Under the pieces are notes generated by a model. It made no database searches and was not told where the DNA came from. It worked only from the letters and a program-made list of their open reading frames with translations. A stretch of DNA of 64,000 nt, taken from NCBI RefSeq assembly GCF_020010905.1, contig NZ_JAGJBY010000002.1, positions 4,154,001-4,218,000 of the forward strand. The letters are read 5' to 3'. Source of the DNA: Streptomyces acidiscabies (GTDB lineage: Bacteria; Actinomycetota; Actinomycetes; Streptomycetales; Streptomycetaceae). Made by a program: the position numbers and the translations under genes. Shown in pieces: positions 19,581 to 54,288 of the stretch (the first letter of the stretch is position 1; every line of letters begins with the position of its first letter).

Positions 19581-19629
19581 CCCGCCGCCCGCCCTTCCTC
19601 CCTCACGAAACGAACACGGAAACAACACC

Positions 19630-22883: not shown

Positions 22884-24995
22884 ATGCTGCGAAAACTGGC
22901 CGCCCTGCCCAGCGGAAGGGTGGGCAAATGGGTCGTCATCGCGATCTGGGCCGTGATCCTCGTCCCCGCGCTGATGCTCGCCGGGAAGCTCGGTGACGCC
23001 GAGGAGAACGACAACTCGGCCTGGCTGCCGGGCAACGCCGAGTCCACCGCCGTCGTCGAGCGCGCCCAGAAGCTGATGCCCGCCGACACCGTCCCCGCGA
23101 TCGTCGTCTACGACCGGGCCGCCGGGACCACCCCCGCCGACCTCGCCAAGGCGCGCGCCGACGCCACCGCGTTCAAGAGCATCACCAACGTCGTCGGCGA
23201 ACCCCAGGGCCCCGTCGTCTCCGAGGACGGCAAGGCCCTCCAGACCGTCGTCCAGGTCCGCAAGGACAAGACCGGCTGGGAAGGGCTCGGCAAGGTCGTC
23301 GACGCCATGACCGACGTCGGCGAGAAGGACGCGGCCGGGCTCGGCTTCCACGTCGCCGGGCCCGCCGGGTACGGCGCCGACTCCATCAAGGCGTTCGGCG
23401 GAGGCGGCGCGCTCACCACCATCACCGCCCTGGTCGTCGTCGCGATCCTGCTGCTCACCTACCGCAGCCCGCTCCTGCCCCTGCTGCCGCTGCTCACCGT
23501 CGGCGTGGCCCTGATGGCGGCGGAGGCGCTGATCTACCTGCTCGCCGAGAACGCCGGACTGGTCGTCAACAAACAGACCAGCTTCATCCTCGTCGTCCTG
23601 CTCTTCGGCGCCGCCACGGACTACGCGCTGCTATTGATCTCCCGCTACCGGGAGGAACTCGCCCGCCACGAGGACCGGCACGAGGCGATGGCCGAGGCCC
23701 TCTACCGCTCCGGGCCCGCGATCGTCGCCAGCGCCGCGACCGTCGCCGTCAGCCTCATGCTCCTCACCCTCGCCGTCCTCAACTCCACCAAGGGCCTGGG
23801 CCCGGCCTGCGCGGTCGGCATCCTCGTCGGCCTGCTCGCCATGACGACCCTCATGCCGGCCCTCCTTGTCGCCTGCGGGCGGTGGATCTTCTGGCCGAAG
23901 AAACCCGTGTACGGCGCCGAGGCGCAGGCCGTGGAGAGCGTCTGGGACCGGGTCGGGAACGTCATCTCCGGCCGGCCCCGCCTCGTGTGGGCCGGGACCG
24001 TCCTCGTGCTCGGCGCGATGGGGCTCGGGGCGCTCGGGCTCGACGCCTCCGGCCTCTCCAACAAGGACCAGTTCACGAACAAACCGCAGATGGCCGTCGG
24101 CGAGGAGATCCGCGCCGAGCACTTCCCGGCCGGCTCGGGCGACCCCGTCTACGTCGTCACCAAGGCCGACGCCGCCGCCCAGGTCAGGACAGCTCTTACG
24201 GCCGTACCCGGCATCACCGGCGTCGGCGACCCCGTCGTCAAGAGCGGCGAAGCGGTCCTGCTCGCCCAGCTGAAGGACGAGCCCAGCAACGAGGCGGCGA
24301 TGAACACCGTCGACCGCGCCCGCACCGCCGTCCACAAGATCGAAGGGGCCGACGCGCAGGTCGGCGGCTCCACCGCGATCATGCTCGACACAGAGAACGC
24401 GGCGGCCCGCGACTCGAAGGTGATCATCCCGATCGTCCTCCTCGTCGTCCTGCTCATCCTCGGCCTGCTGCTGCGCGCGGTGGTCGCGCCGCTGCTGCTG
24501 ATGGCGACCGTCCTCCTGTCGTTCGGCGCCGCCCTCGGCGTGAGCAGCCTCGTCTTCGAGCACGTCTTCGGCCTCGCCGGCGCCGACGCCTCGTTCCCGC
24601 TGCTCGCGTTCGTGTTCCTCGTCGCCCTCGGCATCGACTACAACATCTTCCTGGTCACCCGCGTCCGCGAGGACGCCGCCCTGCACGGCACCCGGCGCGC
24701 CGCGCTCACCGGCCTCTCCGCCACCGGCGGGGTCATCACCTCGGCGGGCGTCGTCCTCGCGGGCACCTTCGCCGCGATGGCCTCCCTGCCGCTGGTCTTC
24801 GCCGTCGAACTCGGCTTCGCCGTCGCGTTCGGCGTCCTGCTCGACACGCTCGTGGTGCGCTCGGTGCTCGTCACCGCGCTCACCCTCGACGTGGGCCGCT
24901 GGATGTGGTGGCCCAGCAAGCTGTTCCACCGCCGCGACGACGCGGACGCGTCCGCGGGTGAGAGCGGGCAGGTACCCGCCTACAGCGGCAGGTGA
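22884..24995 (+). CDS. MMPL/RND-family transporter
   Basis: 703 residues, ATG at 22884, 48 bp after the cyclase. The topology is two repeats of one N-terminal helix, an extracytoplasmic domain and a bundle of about five helices. Characteristic motifs are the loop segment around NDNSAWLPGNAEST, FGAATDYALLLISRYREEL in the first half and FLVALGIDYNIFLVTRVRED in the second. Proton-driven export of lipids or secondary metabolites is the family role. As the last gene before a terminator in the biosynthetic operon it most likely exports the product and gives self-protection. Confidence 0.93.
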   Translation: MLRKLAALPSGRVGKWVVIAIWAVILVPALMLAGKLGDAEENDNSAWLPGNAESTAVVERAQKLMPADTVPAIVVYDRAAGTTPADLAKARADATAFKSITNVVGEPQGPVVSEDGKALQTVVQVRKDKTGWEGLGKVVDAMTDVGEKDAAGLGFHVAGPAGYGADSIKAFGGGGALTTITALVVVAILLLTYRSPLLPLLPLLTVGVALMAAEALIYLLAENAGLVVNKQTSFILVVLLFGAATDYALLLISRYREELARHEDRHEAMAEALYRSGPAIVASAATVAVSLMLLTLAVLNSTKGLGPACAVGILVGLLAMTTLMPALLVACGRWIFWPKKPVYGAEAQAVESVWDRVGNVISGRPRLVWAGTVLVLGAMGLGALGLDASGLSNKDQFTNKPQMAVGEEIRAEHFPAGSGDPVYVVTKADAAAQVRTALTAVPGITGVGDPVVKSGEAVLLAQLKDEPSNEAAMNTVDRARTAVHKIEGADAQVGGSTAIMLDTENAAARDSKVIIPIVLLVVLLILGLLLRAVVAPLLLMATVLLSFGAALGVSSLVFEHVFGLAGADASFPLLAFVFLVALGIDYNIFLVTRVREDAALHGTRRAALTGLSATGGVITSAGVVLAGTFAAMASLPLVFAVELGFAVAFGVLLDTLVVRSVLVTALTLDVGRWMWWPSKLFHRRDDADASAGESGQVPAYSGR

Positions 24996-25002
24996 ACCGT
25001 CT

Positions 25003-25037
25003 CTGCCACGGCGACCCCGTCCGGGGTCCCGTGGCAG
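25003..25037 (+). terminator. hairpin terminator of the prenyltransferase-MMPL operon
   Basis: CTGCCACGG plus GACCCC pair with GGGGTC plus CCGTGGCAG around a short loop (one bulged C). The stem begins 8 bp after the MMPL stop codon. Confidence 0.75.
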
Positions 25038-25080
25038 GGGCGACCGCACGCACGGAAACACGGCAACGGGGGCAAGATCC

Positions 25081-26370
25081 ATGCACACGGAGACGAGGGA
25101 CAGGGAACTCCGCCGCGACACCACGACGGAAGGCACCGGTGCGCGGCGCATCGCGGAACTCGAACACGAGGTCCGCGAACTCAGACGCGCGAATGAGACG
25201 CTCAAGCAGTACGTCAGTAAGGCACTTGATCTCGATACCGGGCCTCGGGGGGAGGAGCGGGCGGGTGTGCGGGCTGCGGGGTCGGATCTGGATGTGGACC
25301 GGGCGGGCGGGCGATCTGCGGGATCGGACGTGGAGGTGGACCGGCCGGGCGGGCGGTCTGTGGGACCGGGCCGGGACTTGGACGCGGACCGGCCTGGCGT
25401 GCAGTCGGACGGGGATCGGTCGGGCGTGCAGTCCTTGAGCCGGGACCCGGACGTGGATCGGTCGGGTATGAGGTCTGCGGGACGAGACCTGGACCTGTAC
25501 GCGGACCGGTCCGGCACGCGGTTCTCGGGCCGGGACCCGGACCGGTCGGGCGGGCCGGACCCGGAGCGCCCCTCGCGCAGGCCCGCGCCCGCCACCGGCG
25601 TCGAGTTCCGGGTGCTCGGTCCCGTCGAGGCCGCCGTCGACGGGCGCTGGGTCGACCTCGGGGCGCCCAAGCAGCGTGCCGCGCTCGTCCTGCTGGTCAG
25701 CCAGGTCGGCCAGCCCGTCTCCGTCGACGCCCTCGTCGACGCGCTGTGGGAGGGGCGGCCCCCGCAGTCCGCGATCACCTCGCTGCACGCCTACATCGCC
25801 AACCTGCGGCGCGCCCTCGAACCCCACCGCGCGCCCCGCACCCCGGCCACCGTGCTGTGCACGCGCGGACGCGGCTACCTCCTCGACAGCCGGGCCGTGG
25901 AGGTCGACGCGCATCGCTTCTGGGAGCACGCGACCGCCGGGTGGCAGGCGCTGGACCGGGGTGATCCGCAGCGCGCGCTGTACGCGTTCGAGGCGGGTCT
26001 CGGGCTGTGGCGGGGGGAGGCGTACGCGGAGGTCGCGGGCGCGCCGCACGTCGCGCCCGAGGCGGTGAGGCTGGAGGAACTGCGGCTGTCGGTGGTCGAG
26101 GGGAGGTGCGCCACCCTCATCGCCGTCGGCAATCACGAGATGGCGGTGCCTGAACTGGTCGCCTTCACGCAGGCGCATCCCTTGCGGGAGTACGGCTGTG
26201 AGTTGCTCACTCTCGCGCTGTACCGGTCGGGACGGCAGGCCGACGCGCTCTCGGTGCTGCGGGCTCACCAGAAGAAGATGGTCGAGGGGCTGGGCATCTC
26301 ACCGAGCCCGGCGTTGCAACATCTGGAGCTGGAGATCCTGCGGCAGGCACCGGAGTTGGAGCGCTCCTGA
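25081..26370 (+). CDS. SARP-family regulator with N-terminal transposase-like leucine zipper and repeat linker (SARP3)
   Basis: 429 residues, ATG at 25081. The SARP module is at the C-terminal end: DNA-binding domain from about residue 175 (VEFRVLGPVEAAVDGRW) and BTAD to the end. Ahead of it are two unusual parts. Residues about 23-50 (RIAELEHEVRELRRANETLK) form a heptad coiled coil that closely resembles the OrfA leucine zipper of IS3-type transposases. Residues about 53-165 are an Asp/Arg/Gly/Ser low-complexity linker with repeated DxDRxGxRS units. No helix-turn-helix of OrfA is present. The zipper could dimerise the regulator, as SARPs bind tandem sites. It is convergent with the methyltransferase gene. 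Confidence 0.85.
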   Translation: MHTETRDRELRRDTTTEGTGARRIAELEHEVRELRRANETLKQYVSKALDLDTGPRGEERAGVRAAGSDLDVDRAGGRSAGSDVEVDRPGGRSVGPGRDLDADRPGVQSDGDRSGVQSLSRDPDVDRSGMRSAGRDLDLYADRSGTRFSGRDPDRSGGPDPERPSRRPAPATGVEFRVLGPVEAAVDGRWVDLGAPKQRAALVLLVSQVGQPVSVDALVDALWEGRPPQSAITSLHAYIANLRRALEPHRAPRTPATVLCTRGRGYLLDSRAVEVDAHRFWEHATAGWQALDRGDPQRALYAFEAGLGLWRGEAYAEVAGAPHVAPEAVRLEELRLSVVEGRCATLIAVGNHEMAVPELVAFTQAHPLREYGCELLTLALYRSGRQADALSVLRAHQKKMVEGLGISPSPALQHLELEILRQAPELERS

Positions 26371-26441: not shown

Positions 26442-27437
26442 TCACCGGGCCAGTACGAGGGTCGTCGGCGATGGTGTCTCCACGAACCGCACCTCCTCGA
26501 ACCCGGCCGCCGTCAGCCACGCGTGATAGTCGCTCCGCCGCCAGGTGGAACCGTGCCGGCTCTTCAGGAGCATCTCCCCGGCGAAGGTCAGCGCGAAGGC
26601 GGGCCCGCTGCGCTCGTCGTCGGTGATGTAGTCGGAGACGACGAGCGTCCCGCCCGGCCGCAGGGCCCGCCGGATGCGGGCGAACACCGCCTCGTTGTCC
26701 TCGGGCCCTTCCTGGTGGGCGATGTTGGAGTACATGACGACGTCGTGCTCCCCGTCCCCGAAGTCGACGGTGTGGAAGTCGCCGTCCACATGCTCGACCC
26801 GATCGCCCACCCCCTGTTCGGCGAGCAGCCGTCGGGCGATGGCGTTGATCGGCACCCAGTCGATCTGCGTGGCACGGGCGTCCGGGTTGAGGCCGAGCCA
26901 CACCGCCGAGCACACCCCGGAACCGCCGCCGACGTCCAGGACCGAGATCTTCCCGGCATCGGCCAGCCCGAGTTCCTCGGCGGCGATGTGCGCGACGGGC
27001 ACGGACTGCGCGGCGATCGCCTGGACCAGGTTCTCCCAGTGCGGGTTGTCGGCGACCTCCACGACCGCGTCCGACACCGGACCGCCCGCTTTCACGACGT
27101 CCGGCAGCGCGGCCAGCGAGCCGAGGTGGCCCATCTTGAGGCGGGCGAACGCGGCCAGCGACGCGGGCTTGCCGGAGACCAGGAACGCCGACGCCTCAAG
27201 GGAGTTGCGGTAGCGGCCGTCCGCCACCTCGACCAGCTCCAGCGCGACGAGGCCGTCCAGGAGGGCCTGCGCACCGCGTACCGCGACACCGGCCCGCGCC
27301 GCCAGCTCCTCAGGGGTGCCGGCGCCGTCCTCAAGGTGGGTGAACAGGTCGTACGTCGCGGCCGTGCCCACGACTCCGGTCGCCCAGTAGCCGTTGATCA
27401 GCCGCATCACGCGGTCGGATGCGGGGGTGCTGGTCAT
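26442..27437 (-). CDS. SAM-dependent O-methyltransferase
   Basis: 331 residues. The ATG overlaps the THN synthase stop by 4 bp (ATGA), so it is the last gene of the minus-strand operon. An N-terminal winged-helix dimerisation domain (about 10-90) precedes a Rossmann methyltransferase domain with motif I LDVGGGSGVCSAVWLG (about 166-181), an acidic HVDGDFHTVDF region and LRPGGTLVVSDYI. It is typical of plant-like and actinomycete small-molecule O-methyltransferases (methyltransf_2). A hydroxyl of the naphthoquinone is the likely acceptor, though C-methylation cannot be excluded. Confidence 0.88.
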   Translation of the reverse strand: MTSTPASDRVMRLINGYWATGVVGTAATYDLFTHLEDGAGTPEELAARAGVAVRGAQALLDGLVALELVEVADGRYRNSLEASAFLVSGKPASLAAFARLKMGHLGSLAALPDVVKAGGPVSDAVVEVADNPHWENLVQAIAAQSVPVAHIAAEELGLADAGKISVLDVGGGSGVCSAVWLGLNPDARATQIDWVPINAIARRLLAEQGVGDRVEHVDGDFHTVDFGDGEHDVVMYSNIAHQEGPEDNEAVFARIRRALRPGGTLVVSDYITDDERSGPAFALTFAGEMLLKSRHGSTWRRSDYHAWLTAAGFEEVRFVETPSPTTLVLAR

Positions 27438-28525
27438 GCGGTCCTCCCCATGGAGTGGTGGTCGTCGACCCAGGTGCCGAGGGCCATCTCGGCGGTGATG
27501 CCGGGGCCGAACCCGGCGATCAGGCCGGTCGCCCCGGTGGGCAGCGGGCCTTCCTCGAACCGTCTGCGCAGGGCGTCGAGGACGACGGCGCTGGCGATGT
27601 TCCCGTACTCGGTGAGCGTCCCCCAGCTGTGCCGGAAGACCGAGCCGTCGACCCCGAGGTACTTCGCGAGGTCGTCCAGGATGCGGGGGCCGCCCGCGTG
27701 GATGATGTAGAAGTCCAGGTCCCCGGCGTCCCAGCCGTGGCCGGCCGCGAGGTCCTTGAGGACCGGCGCGAGCGGCTCCATGGTGCCCGGCACCCGACGG
27801 TCGAGCTGGAAGTGGAACCCCGTGTCCCGGACCGCGTACGAGATCCAGTCCTCGGTGTTCGGGATCAAGTACGAGGCGTTGCGCGCCAGTTGGACACCAG
27901 TGACACCCGATCCGCCTCCGCCGCGTACGACGGCCGCCGCGACCGCGTCGCCGAACAGGCCGTCCGACAGCAGCGAGCCGATGTCGTCCGCGTCCGGCTG
28001 GTAGCACAGGGAGCACAGCTCGCACGACACGATCAGGACGTTGCTGTCCGGGTGCGCCGCGCAGAAGTCGTGGGCCCGGTTGATCGCCGCGCCGCCCGCC
28101 GCGCAGCCCAGTTGGGCGATGGGCAGTTGCCGGGTGTCGTAGCGCAGGCCCATCGTGTTGATCAGCCACGCCGTCAGCGAGGGCATCATGAAGCCGGTGC
28201 ACGACACGTAGATGATCGCGTCGATGTCCTCGGCCCGCAGCAGCGCGTTCGCCAGCGCCTCCTCTATCGCCTCCGGGCAGCGCTTCTTCGACTCCATCTC
28301 GTAGATACGGTTCCGTTCCTCGAAACCGGGGTGGGACAAGGTCTTCTCGATGGGCTGGACCAGGTGTCGTTTCTTGACCCCGGTGTTCTCTATCAGCCGG
28401 AGCGCGAGCGGCAGTTGCGGTTTTCCGGCGTGTGCCGTGCGGGCGAAATCCAGGGTCTGTTCCATCGTGATGACGTATTCCGGTACGCGCACTGCGGGTT
28501 TGCAGAGAATGGGCATGTCCGGCAT
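27434..28525 (-). CDS. rppA: type III polyketide synthase, 1,3,6,8-tetrahydroxynaphthalene synthase (RppA-like)
   Basis: 363 residues, ATG at 28525 with GAGAGGCG upstream. The catalytic triad is visible: Cys141 in QLGCAAGGAAINRAHDFC, His276 in YIIHAGGPRILDDL and Asn309 in TEYGNIASAVVLDALRR. Long stretches match RppA proteins, such as LPLALRLIENTGV, YVSCTGFMMPSLTAWLIN, SLCYQPD and GFGPGITAEMALG. The RppA reaction condenses five malonyl-CoA into THN, the aromatic core of flaviolin, naphterpin, napyradiomycin and furaquinocin. It lies 49 bp after the lyase gene and overlaps the methyltransferase by 4 bp. This gene sets the product class of the cluster. Confidence 0.94.
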   Translation of the reverse strand: MPDMPILCKPAVRVPEYVITMEQTLDFARTAHAGKPQLPLALRLIENTGVKKRHLVQPIEKTLSHPGFEERNRIYEMESKKRCPEAIEEALANALLRAEDIDAIIYVSCTGFMMPSLTAWLINTMGLRYDTRQLPIAQLGCAAGGAAINRAHDFCAAHPDSNVLIVSCELCSLCYQPDADDIGSLLSDGLFGDAVAAAVVRGGGGSGVTGVQLARNASYLIPNTEDWISYAVRDTGFHFQLDRRVPGTMEPLAPVLKDLAAGHGWDAGDLDFYIIHAGGPRILDDLAKYLGVDGSVFRHSWGTLTEYGNIASAVVLDALRRRFEEGPLPTGATGLIAGFGPGITAEMALGTWVDDHHSMGRTA

Positions 28526-28574
28526 TCGCCTCTCAGCAGTAAGGGAATTCTCGGAAAGTGTTTGTTCAGAGGGG

Positions 28575-29927
28575 TTAATGCCGGACGACTTCGTCGTCGA
28601 CCAGCAGGGCGGCGGCGCCCGTGTACGTGCAGGGGTCCAGCAGGCGGGAGATCCGGTCGGCCGTCAGATGCGCGGTGACCTCGGGCAGTTCGCCCAGGAC
28701 GTCACCGAGAGCGCGCTCGCTGCGGTCCGCCTGCGCAGAGGCTTCGGTCACCAACTCGCGGGCGCGGGCCTTGCCGAGCGGTCCGGCGAGGGCGGCACAG
28801 ATCCGCTCCGAGACGATCCGGCCGCCGGTCAGCTCCAGGTTCGCGCGCATCCGGTCGGGCCGGACGACCAGCCCTTCGGCCAGCTCCACGGCCGTGTGCG
28901 CGGCGCCCCCGGCCAGCCGCAGGCACTCCCGCAGCAACTGCCACTCGGCGTGCCAGACCCCGGCCGACCGCTCGTCCTCGCACACGAGACACTGCGTCAG
29001 CCCTGCCGCGAGCACCGGGACCTGGAGCGCGGCGCTGCGCAACAGGGTCGCCAGTACGGGGTTCTGCTTGTGCGGCATCGCGGACGACGCGCCCCGCCCG
29101 GCCGGTGAGGGTTCGGCTACCTCGCCGACTTCGGTCCTGGCCAGCGACTGGACGTCCACGGCGATCTTCCCGAGCGCGCCCGTGGTCAGCGCGAGTACGG
29201 CTGCGAGGTCGGCGATCGGGGTGCGCAGCGCGTGCCAGGGCAGGGGCGGCCGGGCGAGGCCCGTCTCCACGGCGTACGCGTCGAGCAGCGGTCCCACCGG
29301 CCCCGCTTCCTGATACCCGGCAAGCGTCCCGGCGGCCCCGCCCAACGAGAACGGCAGCCCCCCGTCCAGCAACGCCGCGACCCGGTCCCGGGCATCCAGC
29401 ACGAGCCGCCGCCAGCCGGCCGCCTTCAGCCCGAAGGTGGTGGGTACGGCGTGCAGGGCGAGGGTCCGCCCGGCGAGCACGGTGTCCCGGTGCCGCACGG
29501 CGAGTTCGGCGAGCGCTGCGGCGGTCCGCTCCAGGTCGGCACGGACCAGGGAGAGCACCCGGCGGGCGACGAGCATGGCGCCGGTGTCGAAGACGTCCTG
29601 GCTGGTCGAGCCGTGATGAACGTACGCGGCGGCGTCGGGCGAGGTCTCGGCGACGACCCGGGTGAGGGCGCCGACGAGCCCGACCACGGGGTTCGCGGTC
29701 TCCCGTGCGATGAGGGCAAGGGCGCGGACATCGAACCGCTCGACGCGGGCGGCCTCGGTAATGACCTTGGCGGCTTCGCCGGGGACCACCCCAACGACGG
29801 CCTGCGCCCGGGCGAGCGCGGCTTCGGCGTCCAGCATGGCTTGCAGCCAGGCGGCGTCGGAGGTGGCGGCTTCGGCGGGGGTGCCGGCGCGGACGGGGGA
29901 GAGGAGGCCGAGGTCGTGGTCGGTCAT
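28575..29927 (-). CDS. fumarase/aspartase-superfamily lyase, likely nitrosuccinate lyase (CreD-like)
   Basis: 450 residues. The ATG overlaps the upstream gene's stop (ATGA). It belongs to the carboxymuconate cycloisomerase/adenylosuccinate lyase branch, with HHGSTSQDVFDT (about 103-114) and the signature GRGASSAMPHKQNPV (about 278-292). In beta-ketoadipate catabolism such a protein would be PcaB, but no pca genes are near. Instead it sits directly behind a CreE-type flavoprotein, the pairing seen in cremeomycin biosynthesis. There CreE oxidises aspartate to nitrosuccinate and CreD splits it to fumarate and nitrous acid. I therefore read it as the nitrite-releasing lyase. Confidence 0.8.
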   Translation of the reverse strand: MTDHDLGLLSPVRAGTPAEAATSDAAWLQAMLDAEAALARAQAVVGVVPGEAAKVITEAARVERFDVRALALIARETANPVVGLVGALTRVVAETSPDAAAYVHHGSTSQDVFDTGAMLVARRVLSLVRADLERTAAALAELAVRHRDTVLAGRTLALHAVPTTFGLKAAGWRRLVLDARDRVAALLDGGLPFSLGGAAGTLAGYQEAGPVGPLLDAYAVETGLARPPLPWHALRTPIADLAAVLALTTGALGKIAVDVQSLARTEVGEVAEPSPAGRGASSAMPHKQNPVLATLLRSAALQVPVLAAGLTQCLVCEDERSAGVWHAEWQLLRECLRLAGGAAHTAVELAEGLVVRPDRMRANLELTGGRIVSERICAALAGPLGKARARELVTEASAQADRSERALGDVLGELPEVTAHLTADRISRLLDPCTYTGAAALLVDDEVVRH

Positions 29928-32659
29928 GCGGACGCTCGCAGGGTTGGGGGTGACGGGGGTGATGCGGGGGAGGGGGGTGTGGCTGGAGGGGCGTCGGTGG
30001 AGGGGGTCTGCGCAGGGGCTGAGGGCGTGGTGGGGAGTTCTGGCGTGGGGCGGGTGGGAGTGGCCGGGGTGTCGGCGGGTTGTGTCCGCGCGGGATCGGA
30101 GGGTGTGGGGTGAGCGCGGGTAGCCGGGGTGCTGGCGGGTGGTGTGCGCGCAGGACCTGAGGGCGTGGCGGGGAGTTCTGGCGCGAGGCGGGTGGGAGCG
30201 GCCGGGGCACCGACGGACGGTGTCCGTGGGGTGGGGAGTTCCAGCGCGGGGCGGGTGGTAGTGGCCGGGGTGTCGGTGGGTGGTGTCCGCGTGGGGTCCG
30301 AGGGAGCGGCGGGAGGTTCTGGCGTGGAGTGGGAGAAAGGGGTCGGCGAGGCAGCCGGGATGTGCGGGGGAGCCGAGGGCGCGATGGCGAGTTCTGGCGC
30401 GAGGGCGGTCGGTGCACCGGCGGGCGGCGTCCGTGCGGGCGATGACTGCGTGTCGGGAAGTTGAGGCGCAGGGTTGGCGAGGTCGGTCGGTGCACCGGCG
30501 GGCGGCGTCCGTGCGGGCGATGACTGCGTGTCGGGAAGTTGAGGCGCAGGGTTGGCGAGGGCAGCCGGGGCATCGACAGGCGGCGTCCGCGCGGGCAATG
30601 ACTGCGCGTCGGGAAGCCGAGGCGCAGGGCTGGCGAGGTCGGTCGGTGCACCGGCGGGCGGCGTCCGTGCGGGCAGTGACTGCGTGGCGGGAAGTTGAGG
30701 CGCAGGGTTGGCGAGGTCGGTCGGTGCACCGGCGGGCGGCGTCCGTGCGGGCAATGGCTGCGTGGCGGGAAGTTGAGGCGCAGGGCTGGCGAGGGCGGCC
30801 GGGGCATCGACGGGCGGCGTCCGCGCGAGGCCCTGTCCTGACACCCCGTCCGACAGCACCCCGGGACCCCCCGACGCCGCCTCCCCCGCCAACACCGCCC
30901 GCGCCACCGCATCCGCATCGCCCAGGATCACCGAGTCGACCCCCGGCCGGATCCCGGCAGCGGTCACCCAGTGGACCCCCTCCGTCGGCACCCCCAGCGC
31001 GAACCGGCGCGGATGAGCCCGCCCCGTCGCGTCGACCAGTCGGTACGGGCGTTCCGTCACGGCCAACCCCCGCGTCGCGACCTCCGTCCCGCAGCTCCCG
31101 GCGATCGAGAACCGCCTCGCCCGCCCCGACTCCAACAGCCCCCGCAGCAACGGGTCCGCCGTACGCGCGAGGTCCGGCTCCGGCAACCGTGCCTCGATCA
31201 GCGCGGTCGCCCGTACCGGTGGCCCCGGTACGACACCGGAGACGACGCTGAACCCGTCCCCGGCCGACACCCGGACCTCCGGCCCGAGGATCTCCACGAC
31301 CCCCGCCTCGATCAGCGCGATCAACTCCGCCACCCGCGAGACCGGCGGCCCGATGGACAGGAACGCGTTCAGCGGGGTGTACCAGCCCTGGACGTCGTCC
31401 CGGTACGAACCACCCTCCAGCCGCCCGTGATCGACGGCGGCACGGATCTCGTTGCGCAGATCCCGCAGCACATCGAGGGCAGCCTTGAGCGGCCCGCGTA
31501 CGTTGCCCGCACGAGCCTCACGCACGTCGTCCGCGAGATGCCCCAGGAGCCACGCCCGGTACGCGTCCGGGTCACGAAGGTCCCGCCCGAGCCAGGGCCG
31601 AGCCACCCGCTCCCAGTCCCACCGCTCCCCGGCCGAGACCCCGGCGGCGTCCAGCAACCGCGCCTCGGCGGCCCGGTCGGGCGCCGCCAGGAACTCCCGT
31701 ACGAACGATTCACGCGAGCCCAGCAGCGTGCCGTAATAGACGCTCTCGACCTCCTTGGCGATCAACGGCCACAGATCGGCGGCGAACGACAGCCGCTCCC
31801 CGTCCTCGGCCCGCCGGTGCAGCCGGGCGACGGCCGCGAGGGTCAGCAGACGCGGCTCGTGGCGGCCGTACGCACCCTTCTGGTTCTCACCGCGCGCGTG
31901 GTACGGCACCCCGCGCCGCGACCCGGCGACGATGCGCGGCTCCCGCCCCGAAGGCTCGTAGCGCAGACGGTCGGCATCCCGGACGAACCTCCCGCCCCGC
32001 TCCTCGGTCAGCAGCGCGAGCACGTCGAAGAAGTTCAGCCCGAGCCCGCGTACGAAGACGGTCTCGCCCGGAGAGATCCCGGACAGGTCGAGGTCGGCGG
32101 GGTTCGCGGGGCCGAAGTAACCGGCGAGGCGCGGTTCGCCGGGCGCGGGGCGGACGGGAAGGTGCCCCTGCGCCAGGACCACGGCGTCAAGGCCGGTCAG
32201 CCGAGTGCCGTCGGCCAGCAGCAGCGACTGCGTACCGTCCGCCGCGTCGTCGAGCGCGACCGCAGACGTACGGTGCTCCACGACGGTGACATGCGCGGGC
32301 GCCGCGTCCCGCACCGTACGGAACACGCCCTCCAGGTACGCCCCGTACAGAGCCCGCGTCGGATAGTCGTCCGGCCCGAGCCGCCCCGCAGCCCACTCGT
32401 ACAGGCTCGGCCCCTCCTCCACCGGGCCGTCCATCGTCACCGTATGGTCCGTGAACATCGTGACCTGCGAGGCCACCGTGTTCATCAGCAGCCGCCGCGA
32501 CTGATCCGTACGCCACACCTTCCCGGCCCCCGGCGCGTACGGATCGACGACGTGCACGGTCACCGCCTCGTGCGCCGGCGACTTCCGCTCGTTCGCACAC
32601 AGCCGCTCCAGGACGGACAGCCCACGCGGCCCCGCTCCGACAAGACAGACGACAAGCAC
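29924..32659 (-). CDS. FAD-dependent N-oxygenase, likely nitrosuccinate synthase (CreE-like), with a repeat tail
   Basis: 911 residues, GTG at 32659 with AGGAGA, 11 bp after the aminotransferase stop. The core (about 1-600) has an FAD motif at the extreme N-terminus (VGAGPRGLSVLERL), WRTDQSRRLLMNTVASQVTMF and GRHEPRLLTLAAV, typical of the FAD_NAD_binding_9 proteins to which CreE belongs. The adjacent lyase supports aspartate-to-nitrosuccinate chemistry. The last 300 residues or so are a Pro/Ala/Thr-rich tail with 26-residue repeats that is not part of the enzyme fold; its role is unknown. The tail ends in an overlap with the lyase start. Confidence 0.78.
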   Translation of the reverse strand: MLVVCLVGAGPRGLSVLERLCANERKSPAHEAVTVHVVDPYAPGAGKVWRTDQSRRLLMNTVASQVTMFTDHTVTMDGPVEEGPSLYEWAAGRLGPDDYPTRALYGAYLEGVFRTVRDAAPAHVTVVEHRTSAVALDDAADGTQSLLLADGTRLTGLDAVVLAQGHLPVRPAPGEPRLAGYFGPANPADLDLSGISPGETVFVRGLGLNFFDVLALLTEERGGRFVRDADRLRYEPSGREPRIVAGSRRGVPYHARGENQKGAYGRHEPRLLTLAAVARLHRRAEDGERLSFAADLWPLIAKEVESVYYGTLLGSRESFVREFLAAPDRAAEARLLDAAGVSAGERWDWERVARPWLGRDLRDPDAYRAWLLGHLADDVREARAGNVRGPLKAALDVLRDLRNEIRAAVDHGRLEGGSYRDDVQGWYTPLNAFLSIGPPVSRVAELIALIEAGVVEILGPEVRVSAGDGFSVVSGVVPGPPVRATALIEARLPEPDLARTADPLLRGLLESGRARRFSIAGSCGTEVATRGLAVTERPYRLVDATGRAHPRRFALGVPTEGVHWVTAAGIRPGVDSVILGDADAVARAVLAGEAASGGPGVLSDGVSGQGLARTPPVDAPAALASPAPQLPATQPLPARTPPAGAPTDLANPAPQLPATQSLPARTPPAGAPTDLASPAPRLPDAQSLPARTPPVDAPAALANPAPQLPDTQSSPARTPPAGAPTDLANPAPQLPDTQSSPARTPPAGAPTALAPELAIAPSAPPHIPAASPTPFSHSTPEPPAAPSDPTRTPPTDTPATTTRPALELPTPRTPSVGAPAAPTRLAPELPATPSGPARTPPASTPATRAHPTPSDPARTQPADTPATPTRPTPELPTTPSAPAQTPSTDAPPATPPSPASPPSPPTLRASA
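30424..30836. repeat. 78-bp tandem repeats in the CreE-like gene tail
   Basis: The anchor CCG(T/C)GCG recurs at 30431, 30509, 30587, 30665, 30743 and 30821, an exact 78-bp period (26 codons). On the coding strand each unit reads like PARTPPAGAPTDLANPAPQL with small changes. Units are nearly identical, so recent expansion is likely. Degenerate relatives continue to about 29940. It is coding, so not a CRISPR array. Confidence 0.9.
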
Positions 32660-32670
32660 GGGCTCTCCTG

Positions 32671-33816
32671 TCAGGACGTGCGGACGTTGTTCTTCAGCTC
32701 GGCCCGCAGCACGTCCACGACCCGCTCGACCTGGTCGTCACGGAGCTCGGCGTGCATGGGGATGGCGAGGTTGCGGTGGAAGAGGTCGGCGGAGACCGGG
32801 CAGCTCTGTACGGCGTCGTAGACCGGCTGGAGATGGCTCGCCCAGGTGCCGTGCCCGCAGCCGATGCCCTGCGCGCGCAGCGACGCGGCGAGGGAGGAGC
32901 GGTCGACGAGCGGGGAGAGCGTCACGAGGTACGACTGCCAGGCGTGGGTGCGGTCGTCGGGGACGTACGGCAGCGTCAACAGGTCCTCGTCGGCGAGGAG
33001 TTCGCCGTACCGGGCCGCGACCGCGCTACGGCGGGCCAGGAGTTCGTCGACCCGCTCCACCTGCACCTGGAGGATCGCGGCGGCGATGTCGGAGAGCTTG
33101 TAGTTGTAGCCGATGTCGGTGAACGTCGGGATCGGCAGCCCGACCACCTGAGCCTGGTCGTAGATGCTGCCGATGCCGAACGACGACCGCAGCCGCGCGT
33201 CCGCCCCGATCACCGGATCGGCGGCGAGCAGCGCCCCGCCCTCCCCGCTGGTGGCGCCCTTGCGGCCGTGGAAGGAGAGGCAGGCGACCGGCGCGAGCGC
33301 GCCCGCGGGCCGCCCCCGGTAGGTCGCGCCGACCGCGCAGGCCGCGTCCTCGACGACGAACAGCCCGTGCCGGTCGGCGAGTGCCATCAGCTCGTCGTAG
33401 TCGGCGGGCAGGCCGACCGTGTCCACGGCGATCACCCCCACCGTGCGCGGCCCGATGAGTGCCTCCACCGCCTGCGGATCGATCGTGCCGGTGTCGGGCC
33501 GCACGTCCGCGAAGACGGGCGTCGCACCGACGTACCGCACCGCGTGCGCCGGGGCGGGGAACGTGTAGTCGGCGACGATCACCTCGTCGCCCGGCTCGAC
33601 GCCGAGCGCCAGCATCGCCAGGTGCAGCGCGGCGCCGCAGTTGCTCAGCGCGACCGCGTCGCCGACGCCGTACCGCTGCTTGAGCTGCGCCTCGAACGCC
33701 TTGCCGCGCGGACCCTGGCCGGCCGGCCAGCCGGAGGCGAACACCTCGGCCACGGCGGAGAGTTCGCGGGCACCGAGGCTCGCGTGGACGAGGGGGACGC
33801 TGTCGTTGGTGGTCAC
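32671..33816 (-). CDS. PLP-dependent aminotransferase, DegT/DnrJ/EryC1/StrS family
   Basis: 381 residues. The GTG at 33816 overlaps the cupin stop by 4 bp (GTGA) and has AAAGGACGG upstream. Family motifs: GNLS-like ALSNCGAALHLAMLALGV, GDEVIVADYTFPAPAHAV, VEDAACAVGA and the Schiff-base Lys186 in SFHGRKGATSGEGGAL. Such enzymes transaminate sugars or cyclic ketones. No sugar genes are nearby. In furaquinocin-type pathways an aminotransferase converts an oxidised THN derivative to 8-aminoflaviolin, so a quinone substrate supplied by the upstream cupin is proposed. The amino group would be the target of the nitrite made by the next two gene products. Confidence 0.85.
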   Translation of the reverse strand: MTTNDSVPLVHASLGARELSAVAEVFASGWPAGQGPRGKAFEAQLKQRYGVGDAVALSNCGAALHLAMLALGVEPGDEVIVADYTFPAPAHAVRYVGATPVFADVRPDTGTIDPQAVEALIGPRTVGVIAVDTVGLPADYDELMALADRHGLFVVEDAACAVGATYRGRPAGALAPVACLSFHGRKGATSGEGGALLAADPVIGADARLRSSFGIGSIYDQAQVVGLPIPTFTDIGYNYKLSDIAAAILQVQVERVDELLARRSAVAARYGELLADEDLLTLPYVPDDRTHAWQSYLVTLSPLVDRSSLAASLRAQGIGCGHGTWASHLQPVYDAVQSCPVSADLFHRNLAIPMHAELRDDQVERVVDVLRAELKNNVRTS

Positions 33817-34352
33817 GGGGCGACCGTCCTTTCTGCGGGCGGGGTGAAGCGGAGCGGGGTGATCTGCTGGACGTCGTAGCGCCGGCGCATCCGCTCGACC
33901 GCCTCGGGGTCCACCGAGGGACCAGCGGCGAAGATCTCGACGATCTCCTCGAAATACCGCTCGTGGTCCGGCGAGGGGGAGCTCTGGAAGAGCATCCGGG
34001 CCGGGGTGTCCGAGGCGTTGCGGAAGGCGTGCGGGGTGCCCGGCGGCACGAACATGCAGCTGCCGGTGACAGCCCGGACGGGACGCTCGCCCTTCGGGGA
34101 CTCCCAGCCGTGCCAGGTGTCCTCGGTCCGCTCGGCGGGCTCGAACGCGAACAGCTCCAGCTCGCCGTCCAGGACGTAGAAGAACTCCTGGGACTCGCTG
34201 TGCGCGTGCGCGCCGACGTCGAATCCCGGCGGCACGACCACTTCGAACACGGAGGAGGAGGAACCGTCCGCCGCGGTGACTTTGAACGTCACGTCCTGGG
34301 CTTTCGTGACGAGTTTCCTGCCGTGTCCTGGCGGGACGATCAGACCGCTCAT
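33813..34352 (-). CDS. cupin-fold oxygenase, MomA-like quinone-forming monooxygenase
   Basis: 179 residues, ATG at 34352. A single cupin barrel with motif 1 PPGFDVGAHAHSESQEFFYVLDGELELF (His residues and Glu as metal ligands) given here in part only: GAHAHSESQEF near residues 51-61, and motif 2 FVPPGTPHAFRNAS near 111-124. Known cupin enzymes encoded beside rppA (MomA type) oxidise THN to flaviolin and on to mompain. It is the first gene of the minus-strand operon and overlaps the aminotransferase, which suggests it makes the ketone/quinone that is aminated. A quercetinase-like role is a weaker alternative. Confidence 0.78.
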   Translation of the reverse strand: MSGLIVPPGHGRKLVTKAQDVTFKVTAADGSSSSVFEVVVPPGFDVGAHAHSESQEFFYVLDGELELFAFEPAERTEDTWHGWESPKGERPVRAVTGSCMFVPPGTPHAFRNASDTPARMLFQSSPSPDHERYFEEIVEIFAAGPSVDPEAVERMRRRYDVQQITPLRFTPPAERTVAP

Positions 34353-34368
34353 GAGTGTCGCTCTCTGT

Positions 34369-34437
34369 GGAATGCATTCCGTGGAATGCTTCTACGGAAT
34401 GCGCGGGGCGCGGAGAAAGGCGGACGGCGGAATTCCG
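34369..34437. promoter_or_regulatory. cluster of GGAAT half-sites in the divergent cupin/polyprenyl synthase promoter
   Basis: GGAATGC occurs at 34369, 34383 and 34396 (13-14 bp spacing). The first is half of the perfect palindrome GGAATGCATTCC (34369-34380). Another palindrome, CGGAATTCCG, lies at 34428-34437. All are just upstream of the cupin start. Repeated half-sites of this kind suggest a cooperative regulator, possibly one of the SARPs, though 11-bp spacing is not kept. Confidence 0.45.
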
Positions 34438-34576
34438 GGCCGGTGGTCACGGCCGATTCCCCAGTGAGAATGCCAGCGCCGACTTGGTGGCCGATTGGCG
34501 CCCGCTTGCCGCCAAGCCGGGGCCAACTCGCCGCGTATTCCCCGGCAAGGGGCCGTGACGAGGATGCGGTTGCGCA

Positions 34577-34592
34577 CGGATTCCAGAATCCG
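34577..34592. promoter_or_regulatory. palindrome upstream of the polyprenyl synthase
   Basis: CGGATTC-CA-GAATCCG is a 16-bp inverted repeat 27 bp before the ATG at 34619. Its half-site overlaps in sequence with the GGAAT sites upstream (GGATTC/GAATCC). Candidate operator for the plus-strand unit. Confidence 0.4.
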
Positions 34593-34618
34593 GTTCCGAC
34601 CACCCCGAGGGGGAAACC

Positions 34619-35761
34619 ATGCAGTCCGCCACCGCACCGCCTGGAGTGCTTCCCGGGCTCACCGCAGGGGCGAGCGTGCCCGAGATCCCGGTAGAGGCGG
34701 GCGGGCTGGAGGTATCAGACGCCGCGCGCCAGGCCGAGGAGAGCTGCGCCGAGCTCCTCGGCCGAGTCGACCGCCGCATCGCCGACCTCCTCAACTCCGA
34801 GGCCGCGCACTGGAGTTCCGTCGACCCCCGGGCCGCCGTACCCGTCGGCGTCGTGGCGGAGCTGATCGCGGCGGGCGGCAAGCGGCTGCGCCCCCTGTTC
34901 TGCGTCACCGGGTTTCTCGCGGCCGGCGCGGACGGCGACGAGGACACTGTCGTGGACGCGGCAGCCGCCCTGGAGCTGCTGCACGCCTTCGCGCTGCTCC
35001 ACGACGACATCATCGACAACTCGCCCACCCGGCGCGGCAGTCCGACCGCCCACGTCGCGTACGCGGACCTGCACGCACGGAACGGCTGGGCGGGGGAGTC
35101 GCGCCGGTACGGCGAGGGCGTCGCGATCCTCGCCGGGGACCTCGCCCTCAGCTACGCGAACCGGCTCGCGGGAACCCTGACCGGCCCGGCGGCGCAGGTC
35201 TGGCACGAGCTGGTCACCGAGATGATCGTCGGCCAGCAACTGGACGTCGCCCTCGCCGCCGAGGCCGTCCCCGACGAGGCGCTGGCCCGCTGGGTCGCCG
35301 TCTGCAAGTCCGGCCGCTACACCATCCACCGCCCGCTCGCGCTGGGCGCGGCCCTCGCCGGACGCCCCGCGCTGTACGGCGCGTTCGAGGCGTACGGCGT
35401 CGCGGCCGGGGAGGCGTTCCAGCTGCGGGACGACCTGCTCGACGCGTTCGGCGACGAGGAGGTCACCGGCAAACCGGCCGGTCTGGACCTCGACGAGCAC
35501 AAGATGACCCTGCTGATCGCGCTGGGCGCGGCGAAGGACCCGGAGGTGGCGCGGCTCGGCGAGGAGAGCCGGCACACCGACTGGAACCCGGCCGCCCTGC
35601 ACACCGCCCTCCTCGCCTCCGGCGTACGCGCGGACGTCGAGAAGCGCATCGACGCCCTCGTCACCGACGCCCGCACGGCCCTCACCGGCGCCGCACTGCC
35701 CGACCCCTGGCGCCTGCGGCTCGAAGAACTCGCCGACATGGTCGCCTACCGCGACCGCTGA
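34619..35761 (+). CDS. polyprenyl diphosphate synthase (trans-isoprenyl diphosphate synthase)
   Basis: 380 residues, ATG with GAGGGGG upstream. First aspartate-rich motif: LLHDDIIDNS (D129-D130-x-x-D133); second: LRDDLLDAFGDE (D271-D272-x-x-D275). GGKRLRP (about 86-92) binds the allylic and IPP phosphates. It condenses IPP with DMAPP to a C10-C20 diphosphate. The Phe at position -5 from the first Asp motif argues against very long chains, but the exact length cannot be fixed. It supplies the donor for the ABBA prenyltransferase or the class II cyclase. No mevalonate genes are in the window, so IPP presumably comes from the MEP pathway. Confidence 0.92.
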   Translation: MQSATAPPGVLPGLTAGASVPEIPVEAGGLEVSDAARQAEESCAELLGRVDRRIADLLNSEAAHWSSVDPRAAVPVGVVAELIAAGGKRLRPLFCVTGFLAAGADGDEDTVVDAAAALELLHAFALLHDDIIDNSPTRRGSPTAHVAYADLHARNGWAGESRRYGEGVAILAGDLALSYANRLAGTLTGPAAQVWHELVTEMIVGQQLDVALAAEAVPDEALARWVAVCKSGRYTIHRPLALGAALAGRPALYGAFEAYGVAAGEAFQLRDDLLDAFGDEEVTGKPAGLDLDEHKMTLLIALGAAKDPEVARLGEESRHTDWNPAALHTALLASGVRADVEKRIDALVTDARTALTGAALPDPWRLRLEELADMVAYRDR

Positions 35762-35783
35762 CGACTCCCGAAGGACCCCTGCC

Positions 35784-37397
35784 ATGAGCACACTTCTGTA
35801 CCGACTGACCCCCAGGCCCGACCACGCCGCACTCCACCGCAAGGGCCTCTACCTCGGCGTCGTCCCCCAGGCGGCGGCCCGCGTGCGCGGCGCGATGCCG
35901 GTGGTCCTCGACCACGACCTCGACGTCCTGCCCGACGCCGGCCGCGATCTGACGGTGGCTCAACTCGCGGCCCACGTCGCGGACATGGCGAACCGTCTCG
36001 CCGTGGCCGGAGTCCGACGCGGCGGACACGTCGTGATCTGCAAGGCCCCCAACTTCGACCTCTGGCTCCTCGCGACGGCCGTCGAACGCCTCGGCGCCGT
36101 CCCGGTGATGCTCTCCCACCACCTCGACTCCGAGGCCCTCTCCGCGCTCCTCGCCCGCCTCGACCGGCCGTACCTGATCACCGACGGCCCCAAGCTCGGC
36201 TCCCTCACCGAGGACGCCGTCGACCTGGACACCCTGACCCGGGGCGTGCTCGGCGTGGGCGACGCCGGTCCCGGCGCGGTCCCGCTCGCCTCCCTGGACG
36301 GCTCGGTGCCGGTCCGCCCGGTGCTGCGTGGCCTCGACGAACCGGCGATGATCACCCACACCTCGGGCACCACCGGCCTGCCGAAACTCGTCGTCCACAC
36401 ACCGCGCACGATGCGCTCCCGGCTGCGCCCCCAGATCTTCCTGCTCGGCCTGATGCGCAAGCGCGGCACCGTCGCGATCCACACCCCGTTCGGCCACTCC
36501 CGGACCTTCGCGGCGATGTCCCTGTGCCTCCTCCAGGGCATGCCGCCGCTGCTGGTGAACAACGGCACCCCGGACTCCGTCGCCACGTTCTTCGCCGCCC
36601 AACGCCCTTGGCTGATCGAGGCGTTGCCCAACACCTTCCTCGCCTGGGAGGAGTTGGCCGACGACGCGCGCCGCCCGTTCGCGTCCGTCAAGTACTTCAG
36701 CAGCACCTTCGACGCGATCCACCCGCGCACCGTACGCCGCCTGCTGCACGCCTCCACGCAGCGCGCGCAGTTCTTCCAGATCTACGGCCAGAGCGAGGTG
36801 GGCCCCGCAGCGGGGCGCCCGTACTTCCGCCGGTTCGCGCACCGCATGGACGGCCGCTGCGTCGGCTACCCGCTGCCGGGCAGCGCTCAGGTGCGGCTGG
36901 TGAGCCGGGACGGGCAGCGGCCCTCGCAGGACAACCCCGGGTTCATCGAGGTGCGGTGGGACGGCATCGCGAAGACGTACCACGGCGAGCAGGAGCGCTA
37001 CGACGCCAACCTGACCGACGGCTGGTGGCGCACCGGCGACGTCGGCTACCGCACCCGGTTCGGCTGCCTGCACATGCTGGACCGCGAGTTCGACGCGATC
37101 GACGGCGTCGGCAGCAGCCTGGAGATCGAGGACGTCCTCCTCGACGAACTCGCGGAACTCGCCGAGGTGGTCGTCGTGCAGGGGCCCGACGGCGAGGCGG
37201 TCCCGGTCGTCTGCACCCACCACGACGAACCGCTCGACCTCGGCCGCTGGCGCACCGCCACCGCCGGATACCCGCAGCTCACCGAACCCGTCCAGATCCC
37301 GCTGGCCGAACTCCCGCGCACCGCCACCCTCAAGACGCGCCGCGTCGAACTCTCCCGCCGCCTCGCGGCCCGGCTACCAGGGACCGTGGTCGAGTAG
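35784..37397 (+). CDS. AMP-forming adenylating enzyme, candidate CreM-like diazotase
   Basis: 537 residues, 22 bp after the polyprenyl synthase, same operon. ANL-superfamily motifs: P-loop MITHTSGTTGLPKLVVH, IYGQSEVGP, GWWRTGDVG and a C-terminal LPRTATLKTRR, where the usual Gly before the catalytic Lys is Leu. There is no acyl-carrier gene or obvious acid substrate in the cluster. In cremeomycin biosynthesis an acyl-CoA-ligase homologue (CreM) activates nitrite with ATP to diazotise an aromatic amine. With CreE- and CreD-like genes present, that is the favoured role. A plain aryl/acyl-CoA ligase remains possible. Confidence 0.7.
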   Translation: MSTLLYRLTPRPDHAALHRKGLYLGVVPQAAARVRGAMPVVLDHDLDVLPDAGRDLTVAQLAAHVADMANRLAVAGVRRGGHVVICKAPNFDLWLLATAVERLGAVPVMLSHHLDSEALSALLARLDRPYLITDGPKLGSLTEDAVDLDTLTRGVLGVGDAGPGAVPLASLDGSVPVRPVLRGLDEPAMITHTSGTTGLPKLVVHTPRTMRSRLRPQIFLLGLMRKRGTVAIHTPFGHSRTFAAMSLCLLQGMPPLLVNNGTPDSVATFFAAQRPWLIEALPNTFLAWEELADDARRPFASVKYFSSTFDAIHPRTVRRLLHASTQRAQFFQIYGQSEVGPAAGRPYFRRFAHRMDGRCVGYPLPGSAQVRLVSRDGQRPSQDNPGFIEVRWDGIAKTYHGEQERYDANLTDGWWRTGDVGYRTRFGCLHMLDREFDAIDGVGSSLEIEDVLLDELAELAEVVVVQGPDGEAVPVVCTHHDEPLDLGRWRTATAGYPQLTEPVQIPLAELPRTATLKTRRVELSRRLAARLPGTVVE

Positions 37398-37730
37398 CCC
37401 GAGGACGAGGATCGCCACCGCCGTGGCGAGGAAGACGATCCCGCCCACGATGTTGCGGGAACCGACCCGCACGTGGGCGATGATCGCCCCCACGAAGTAC
37501 AGGATCAGACCGATCGCGGCCAGCGTGCCCAGCACCGGCACCGCGAGCCCGGCCAGCAGTCCGACGGTGCCCGCCGCCAGCAACGACCCCAGGACCGGGA
37601 CGTACTTGCGGGGGATGCCCTTCATGTCCGCCTGGGTCTTGGGGTACTCATGGCCGATCAGGTACGTGACGGCGGCGGCACCGTTGAAGACCGCGCCGAT
37701 GATGGTCATGGTGACGAAAGCGGTGGACAA
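37374..37730 (-). CDS. DoxX-like small integral membrane protein
   Basis: 118 residues with four predicted membrane helices (about 5-25, 46-65, 67-86, 93-113). The TTG at 37730 has GGAGAG about 4 bases upstream; an in-frame ATG lies 7 codons later. The layout and the motif YLIGHEYPKTQADMKGIPRKYVP fit the DoxX-like family of uncertain function. Its end overlaps the last 24 bp of the convergent ligase gene. Nothing ties it to the cluster chemistry. Confidence 0.7.
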   Translation of the reverse strand: MSTAFVTMTIIGAVFNGAAAVTYLIGHEYPKTQADMKGIPRKYVPVLGSLLAAGTVGLLAGLAVPVLGTLAAIGLILYFVGAIIAHVRVGSRNIVGGIVFLATAVAILVLGLLDHGPW

Positions 37731-53487: not shown

Positions 53488-54288
53488 ATGAGCGGTACCG
53501 AACACCTCACAGTCCGGCGCGAGGGCGCCACCCTCGTCCTCACACTCAACCGGCCCGAAGCGAAGAACGCCCTCTCGCTGCCCATGCTCGTCGGCCTGTA
53601 CGACGGCTGGATCGAGGCCGACGAGGACGACGGCATCCGCTCGATCGTCTTCACCGGCGCCGGCGGCACCTTCTGCGCCGGCATGGACCTCAAGGCCCTC
53701 GCGGGCAAGGGCATCGACGGCGAGCACTACCGCAGCCGCCTCGACGCCGACCCCGACCTCCACTGGAAGGCGATGCTCCGCCACCACCGCCCCCGCAAAC
53801 CGGTCATCGCTGCCGTCGAGGGCCACTGCGTCGCGGGCGGCACCGAAATGCTCCAGGGCACGGACATCCGCGTCGCGGGCGAGTCCGCGACCTTCGGCCT
53901 GTACGAGGTGAAACGCGGCCTCTTCCCCATCGGCGGATCGACGGTCCGTCTCCAGCGGCAGATTCCCCGCACCCACGCCCTGGAGATGCTCCTCACCGGC
54001 CGCCCCTACACCGCCCGCGAGGCCGCCGCGATCGGCCTGATCGGACACGTCGTCCCCGACGGCACCGCCCTGGAGAGAGCCCTGGAGATCGCCGAACAGG
54101 TCAACGCCTGCGGCCCGCTCGCCGTCGAAGCCGTCAAGGCGTCCGTGTACGAGACCGCCGAACTCACCGAGGCCGAGGGGCTCGCCGCCGAACTCAAGCG
54201 CGGCTGGCCGGTGTTCGCGACCGCCGACGCCCAGGAAGGCACCCGCGCCTTCGCCGAGAAACGCGCCCCCGTCTACAAGCGGGCCTGA
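53488..54288 (+). CDS. enoyl-CoA hydratase/isomerase (crotonase family)
   Basis: 266 residues, ATG at 53488 after GGAGGGG. Crotonase features: LNRPEAKNALSLPM, oxyanion-hole GAGGTFCAGMDLKAL (about 61-75) and the second loop EGHCVAGGTEMLQGTDIRVAG (about 112-131). It hydrates or isomerises an enoyl-CoA formed in beta-oxidation of the acid activated by the adjacent FadD. It is the first gene of a four-gene plus-strand operon with DUF35 and thiolase-fold proteins. Confidence 0.9.
   Translation: MSGTEHLTVRREGATLVLTLNRPEAKNALSLPMLVGLYDGWIEADEDDGIRSIVFTGAGGTFCAGMDLKALAGKGIDGEHYRSRLDADPDLHWKAMLRHHRPRKPVIAAVEGHCVAGGTEMLQGTDIRVAGESATFGLYEVKRGLFPIGGSTVRLQRQIPRTHALEMLLTGRPYTAREAAAIGLIGHVVPDGTALERALEIAEQVNACGPLAVEAVKASVYETAELTEAEGLAAELKRGWPVFATADAQEGTRAFAEKRAPVYKRA

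Follow-up and report, generated by a model that had tools for sequence, protein, structure and literature searches.

The window analysed here is a stretch of 64,000 nucleotides of the Streptomyces acidiscabies genome (contig NZ_JAGJBY010000002.1, positions 4,154,001 to 4,218,000), the whole genome amounting to 11.0 Mb in four contigs. It carries a meroterpenoid gene cluster in which creE- and creD-like genes, predicted to make nitrite by the aspartate-nitrosuccinate (ANS) pathway, lie inside the core operon for a 1,3,6,8-tetrahydroxynaphthalene (THN)-derived aromatic nucleus. With moderate confidence, we consider the best explanation of this arrangement to be a cryptic amination of the furaquinocin/napyradiomycin type, in which nitrite made by the operon would be used for diazotisation and the nitrogen would then be lost as N2. 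This reading is built on the observed gene content, gene order, homology, conserved residues and distribution in relatives.

All the genes named in the original prediction are present in the window (Table 1). Six genes form a minus-strand operon in the order cupin, DegT aminotransferase, CreE, CreD, THN synthase and methyltransferase (34352-26442). As had been claimed, the CreE- and CreD-like genes overlap and share the operon with the aminotransferase, cupin and THN synthase; the methyltransferase that ends it (27437-26442) was missing from the earlier gene list. Four-base overlaps occur at the cupin/aminotransferase, CreE/CreD and THN synthase/methyltransferase junctions, and gaps of 11 and 49 bases separate the aminotransferase from CreE and CreD from THN synthase. 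The adenylating enzyme that was said to accompany them is found at 35784-37397, but on the plus strand, where it forms with the polyprenyl diphosphate synthase a divergent pair facing the operon (34619-37397). This gene order is not a product of chance, because it recurs in four other genomes.

The assignment of CreD and CreE to the ANS pathway is supported by profile score and by residues, and nitrite release from aspartate is predicted. CreD scores above the cut-off of the NCBI nitrosuccinate lyase model NF052556 (737.5 against 650 bits), and its closest solved relative is CreD itself (5XNY, 579 bits), whose GRGASSAMPHK loop it keeps. Residues 2-591 of CreE align to 8CP2 (703 bits, 62.3% identity), the L-aspartate N-hydroxylase of Streptomyces sp. 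V2 (PMC10404684). Among 12 residues named there as cofactor or aspartate contacts, including the arginine cluster, 11 are identical to those of 8CP2, the tunnel-entrance Arg597 being replaced by Ala. The window CreE also has a long C-terminal tail made of Pro/Ala/Thr-rich repeat units of 26 residues and longer. Seven other CreE proteins that we measured extend over 647-725 residues from the match start and none has a tail of this length, the longest (from locus L067; L and G numbers denote our loci and genomes) ending in a shorter low-complexity tail. A second CreE-CreD pair lies elsewhere in the same genome (L062:7425-8978 and L063:1-2878, at about 4025-4041 kb of contig C1). Its proteins are 60% (CreE) and 59-66% (CreD) identical to those of the window, a 53% identical ligase (L062) is found about 11 kb away, and flavin adenine dinucleotide (FAD) hydroxylases lie between and beside them. 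This second locus is probably another diazo or nitrite-using cluster.

The genes around the creE-creD cassette support the prediction of a THN/8-aminoflaviolin meroterpenoid cluster of the fur/nap type, in which 8-aminoflaviolin would be formed. Against solved structures, the type III polyketide synthase matches 1U0M, which we take to be the S. coelicolor THN synthase, at 564 bits, the runner-up reaching 154; the label DpgA was rejected (150 bits against a cut-off of 425, and a far better match to 1U0M). Homologues 78-94% identical are found in the loci of 19 relatives. Proteins 75-90% identical to the aminotransferase occur in 21 further genomes of the congeneric set described below. A 568-residue open reading frame (ORF) considered as a single aminotransferase protein was set aside: codons 1-187 are cupin sequence read in the wrong frame, and the true start is at 33816. 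All four cassette-bearing relatives have the cupin, the match in L037 covering just 36% of its length, and a methyltransferase homologue (64-88% identity) was identified in 13 of the 19 loci that have the aminotransferase. The four genes expected together in a fur/nap-type cluster, for THN synthase, cupin, aminotransferase and ligase, lie at 27434-37397 of the window. S. aculeolatus locus L136 has them in the order THN synthase, cupin, aminotransferase, ligase, and its four proteins show 80%, 73%, 75% and 61% identity, respectively, to their window counterparts. This locus also holds mevalonate-pathway genes, a vanadium chloroperoxidase, an FAD halogenase and an ABBA prenyltransferase, and by this gene content it is a napyradiomycin-type cluster.

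Of particular importance is the ANL ligase, the putative diazotase. Its Lys517, presumably the adenylation lysine, does not vary in either of two alignments, one with 17 and one with 27 relatives. A 24-ligase tree, whose THN-free rows were picked among CreE-CreD-linked ones and which is thus uninformative on the frequency of linkage, places the window ligase with those of L078, L136 and L101 in one clade (support 96/95). This clade, the CreE-CreD-linked ligases and six diazotases of the AvaA6 family stand opposite nine other ligases of the window genome, a thin comparison set, across a branch supported at 100/99. The best match in the PDB to the predicted structure (predicted local distance difference test, pLDDT, 84.6) is the diazotase CmaA6 (8ZTZ, E 4e-31, TM 0.79), only slightly above aryl-acid ligases; as the top fold match, it suggests ATP-dependent diazotisation by the ligase. 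The idea that this enzyme could be a CreM-like diazotase is supported, within limits: it groups with the L136 ligase and resembles CmaA6 in fold, but it is not an AvaA6 equivalog, and the connection with CreM runs through NapB4, a CreM homologue at 43% (PMC11705231).

From these assignments we infer the catalytic steps, their order and the loss of nitrogen as follows. THN synthase would make tetrahydroxynaphthalene, the cupin would oxidise it, and the aminotransferase would add an amino group to give 8-aminoflaviolin. CreE would convert aspartate to nitrosuccinate, from which CreD would then free nitrous acid. With ATP and nitrite, the ligase would diazotise the aminonaphthoquinone, and the diazo group would leave as N2, a reductive deamination to pentahydroxynaphthalene (PHN) as in furaquinocin. 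Methylation, prenylation and class II cyclisation would yield a nitrogen-free product. The cassette would thereby provide nitrite in step with 8-aminoflaviolin, and other strains would draw it from another locus or source. The earlier claim that these genes can jointly make nitrous acid and diazotise an aminonaphthoquinone is supported by the sequence-based enzyme assignments and by the published naming of 8-aminoflaviolin/diazo genes (PMC12670698).

We followed the distribution of these genes in 295 congeneric genomes, the window genome included, calling CreD at 650 bits or more with NF052556. CreD exceeds this cut-off in 81 genomes: 19 of the 22 with the aminotransferase against 62 of the 273 without it (Fisher p 2.9e-9, in a test that takes genomes as independent and ignores shared ancestry). 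Among the aminotransferase-bearing genomes, G050, a poor draft, has a CreD three bits under the cut-off, and G156 and G271 have no CreD at E 1e-100. Aminotransferase and CreD lie on the same contig within 25 kb in 12 of the 22 (1.3-21 kb), and in five the CreE-CreD pair stands between aminotransferase and THN synthase (the window genome, G016, G152, G074 and G278). The 650-bit cut-off probably misses true nitrosuccinate lyases, and five module-bearing genomes with no CreD above it were therefore also searched with CreE (CreD at E 1e-100, CreE at E 1e-40). Lyases of 574-582 bits, under the cut-off, directly adjoin AvaA6-like ligases at G240:C18:31215-34351 and G272:C1:5123732-5126816.

The cassette probably entered the operon once, because the five embedded CreD proteins form a single clade (SH-aLRT 100) in a CreD tree that excludes L078, apparently the same genome region as L036. 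After entry, it was apparently lost or broken several times. In the aminotransferase tree (27 rows: the window and 26 of the 74 sequences collected), the cassette-free G051, L077, L079, L081, L082 and L089 are interspersed with cassette-bearing clusters, and L089 of S. flaveolus groups beside the cassette-bearing G152 (support 96/95). Six changes of cassette state are required over the 27 rows, one of which is Actinacidiphila L094, where a CreE-CreD pair follows the aminotransferase in a different gene order; the number of losses is only rough, because many branches of this tree are weak. The remaining core genes keep the same order in L077, L079, L082 and L089; in L081 the THN synthase and methyltransferase are inverted, and in G051 no prenyl diphosphate synthase adjoins the ligase. 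The genomes of L077, L079 and L082 have CreD and CreE on contigs other than that of the cluster, and the genome of L081 has CreD away from it. Repeated loss of the cassette with the other core genes kept fits a role in supply. Another arrangement was seen in Actinacidiphila L102, L105 and L109 (10.0-15.5 kb), which have ligase, cupin, CreE and CreD consecutively and no THN synthase or aminotransferase in the locus.

Besides the independence assumed in the Fisher test and the weakness of many tree branches, several observations speak against cryptic amination with loss of N2. The fate of the nitrogen is its weakest point, because the same kind of module may leave an N-N bond and the window yielded no recognisable denitrifying enzyme among the ORFs scanned. 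An AvaA7-like reductase domain was not seen among the scanned window ORFs, AvaA7 itself not having been used as a query, and the N2-loss step is therefore without a candidate gene. The nitrogen may instead be retained, in a naphthoquinone meroterpenoid with a diazo, hydrazone or pyridazine group for which the cassette would guarantee enough nitrite. Producers with the same class of module are the source of diazo napyradiomycins and azamerone (PMC10897937, PMC11705231), and the position of the cassette within the core operon suggests nitrite production in step with the aromatic core. However, the same module is present in clusters for nitrogen-free products (PMC12670698), and cassette-free sisters such as L089 have retained the other core genes found in the locus, so the cassette need not be required for the product. 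We regard retention as the less likely outcome. Rather unlikely, in our view, is that gain and loss of the cassette act as an evolutionary switch, with full diazotisation and an N-N-containing, class II-cyclised product where it is present, and an amino or nitrogen-free form where it is absent.

The scores of the ligase are also unfavourable to cryptic amination. The AvaA6 3-aminoavenalumate diazotase model NF058622 gives it 79 bits against a cut-off of 975, and we rejected membership of the AvaA6 family on this basis; its identity to four AvaA6-family proteins is 26-27%. A ranking by sequence alone puts the CmaA6 structure fourth (67 bits, against 98 bits for FadD 9XB8). The enzyme could be a coenzyme A (CoA) or amide ligase rather than a diazotase, the CreE-CreD nitrite serving other chemistry or another cluster. 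Generic ligase models do score it above the AvaA6 model, the genome encodes another CreE-CreD pair near a 53% identical ligase, and the module is found without CreE-CreD. In a ligase scan of named genomes (the best 80 of 510 loci, several clipped by contig ends), 54 of the 80 have THN synthase, cupin and aminotransferase together, 64 have one or more of these three, and CreE or CreD is present in 11; among the 16 with no THN-module gene, CreE or CreD occurs in three. A non-diazotase nevertheless appears improbable, since relatives of the ligase lie about 1-11 kb from CreE-CreD outside THN clusters (L151 55%, L155 54%, L062 53%, L075 50% and L069 39% identical, the last three examined because CreD lies there) and the NapB4-type enzyme is called diazo-forming (PMC12670698).

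A further difficulty for cryptic amination with operon-made nitrite is that the THN module is also present without a recognisable nitrite pathway in some genomes. At the E-values given above, neither CreD nor CreE is matched in S. sedi (L111) or in A. pelletieri (L088). A. spongiicola (L087) has a 461-bit lyase and no CreE match. In S. flaveolus (L089), there is a lyase of 550 bits, and a different contig encodes a CreE-like protein (43%); S. triticirhizae (L106) has a CreE-like protein (41%) but gave no lyase match. The operon of Streptomyces sp. WZ.A104 (L080) retains creE without creD, and a CreD is found on a different contig. In G278, the embedded creE is broken by an internal deletion and a frameshift (L040:10666-11798), the other core genes of the cluster are found, and a second CreE-CreD pair lies elsewhere with a 50% identical ligase nearby (L075). 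That the window cassette is likewise a decaying passenger, without effect and with nitrite coming from elsewhere, is very improbable: such losses and the repeat-expanded CreE tail would agree with it, but both window genes are open, 11 of the 12 CreE residues compared are kept, as is the loop of CreD, spacing and overlaps are typical of a working operon, and the repeats lie beyond the part matching 8CP2, which keeps its activity when its own final 15 residues are removed (PMC10404684).

Around this core, the cluster extends over about 11.3-37.8 kb of the window, as judged by conservation in relatives; the genes in the original span of 28575-37397 are real, and the cluster is larger. Conservation in relatives stops right after the ligase and the DoxX gene, and tested ORFs at 37.8-46.3 kb had no match in the stretches of 14 relatives and were therefore excluded. 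The ABBA prenyltransferase is the sole PF11468 match in the whole genome (234 bits to 4EE6 and 170 to 1ZB6). To our knowledge, a class II terpene cyclase-like gene beside an NphB-type prenyltransferase is unusual for THN meroterpenoid clusters. Scanning for promoters and terminators yielded no hits, and in particular no sigma-70-type site in 34353-34618, a weak result, as shuffled sequences gave 0.4 and 2.3. Ten relatives do not have GGAATG/CATTCC as a repeat ahead of their cupin, and this repeat, noted upstream of the window cupin, was set aside. Outside the cluster, the window holds a long RHS-repeat ORF of 2192 residues at its left end (330-6908) and enoyl-CoA hydratase, ChsH2-like and thiolase genes at 53488-56283.

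Table 1. Features of the THN meroterpenoid cluster, in window coordinates; functions are predicted.
Feature	Coordinates	Strand	Evidence
Two large SARP/AfsR-type regulators	11289-14366 and 14707-16884	+	BTAD 131 and 133 bits; conserved in L057, L038, L066
ABBA (NphB-type) aromatic prenyltransferase (profile-match coordinates)	16911..17741	+	PF11468 206 bits
FAD aromatic-ring hydroxylase	17844..19580	+	PF01494 316 bits; 84% in G016
Berberine bridge enzyme (BBE)-type FAD oxidase, start uncertain	19414..21147	+	PF01565/PF08031; 68-80% in four relatives
Class II terpene cyclase-like protein, DVDD motif	21222..22835	+	SQHop_cyclase_C 45 bits; 68-84% in four relatives
MMPL exporter	22884..24995	+	PF03176 416 bits
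SARP regulator, start uncertain	24958..26370	+	BTAD 130 bits; 73-90% in five relatives
S-adenosylmethionine methyltransferase of the module	26442..27437	-	Methyltransf_2 57.7 bits and dimerisation domain
Type III polyketide synthase, THN synthase	27434..28525	-	1U0M 564 bits
CreD-like nitrosuccinate lyase	28575..29927	-	NF052556 737.5 bits; 5XNY CreD 579 bits; GRGASSAMPHK loop conserved
CreE-like L-aspartate N-hydroxylase (predicted nitrosuccinate-forming)	29924..32659	-	8CP2 703 bits, 62.3% identity
Pro/Ala/Thr-rich tandem-repeat C-terminal tail of CreE	29924..30862	-	About 310 residues; 78-bp and 138-bp repeats
DegT-type pyridoxal-phosphate aminotransferase (predicted 8-aminoflaviolin-forming, Fur3/NapB3-like)	32671..33816	-	PF01041 319 bits
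Cupin, putative quinone-forming oxygenase (NapB2/Fur2-like, by position and identity)	33813..34352	-	Cupin_2 61.3 bits
Divergent intergenic region between both operons	34353..34618	.	266 bases; gene layout
Polyprenyl diphosphate synthase	34619..35761	+	PF00348 163.6 bits
ANL ligase, putative ATP-dependent diazotase (NapB4-like)	35784..37397	+	PF00501 128.7 bits; 537 residues
DoxX-like membrane protein, cluster edge	37374..37730	-	PF13564; about 80% identical in G016 and G051

Neither half is new: the ANS pathway is known, and so is the 8-aminoflaviolin/diazo module. Their union in one operon, the repeated loss of the cassette and the class II cyclase-like gene are what differ here. The furaquinocin pathway reportedly runs from THN through 8-aminoflaviolin and reductive deamination to PHN. 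Its fur cluster shares with the window the THN synthase, cupin, aminotransferase, methyltransferase, ligase, polyprenyl synthase and aromatic prenyltransferase (PMC9686526), but the window has in addition creE-creD inside the operon and the class II terpene cyclase-like gene. The same paper states that N-N genes were not found for the furaquinocin-type cluster of one strain. More broadly, the 8-aminoflaviolin/diazo-forming genes (napB1-4) are described as conserved in furaquinocin, naphterpin, furanonaphthoquinone and napyradiomycin clusters (PMC12670698). Compared with napyradiomycin and azamerone clusters, whose core genes are shared as described for L136, the scanned window ORFs include no haloperoxidase or mevalonate gene, and the azamerone producer has creE-creD at a separate locus (PMC11705231). 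With the cremeomycin system CreE-CreD-CreM, the window shares CreE and CreD homologues and the ligase superfamily, but its core is THN-derived and its ligase NapB4-type. The ava and cma systems for avenalumic and p-coumaric acid likewise combine aspartate-derived nitrite, a diazotase and loss of N2 (PMC10777205); the window differs from them in its distant ligase, in the lack of a recognised AvaA7-like gene and in its predicted naphthoquinone substrate.

In the literature, we found no description of creE-creD inside a THN meroterpenoid operon, although the main study of furaquinocin deamination (2025) could contain one. The accounts of diazo-type amino removal in THN meroterpenoids that we consulted place the nitrite genes outside the cluster, whereas the window has them in the core operon. 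The operon may offer a small set of genes with which to produce and trap a naphthoquinone diazo intermediate. Carried by the operon here and lost or broken in close relatives, these nitrite genes would provide a natural comparison for the control of cryptic diazo chemistry by nitrite supply.

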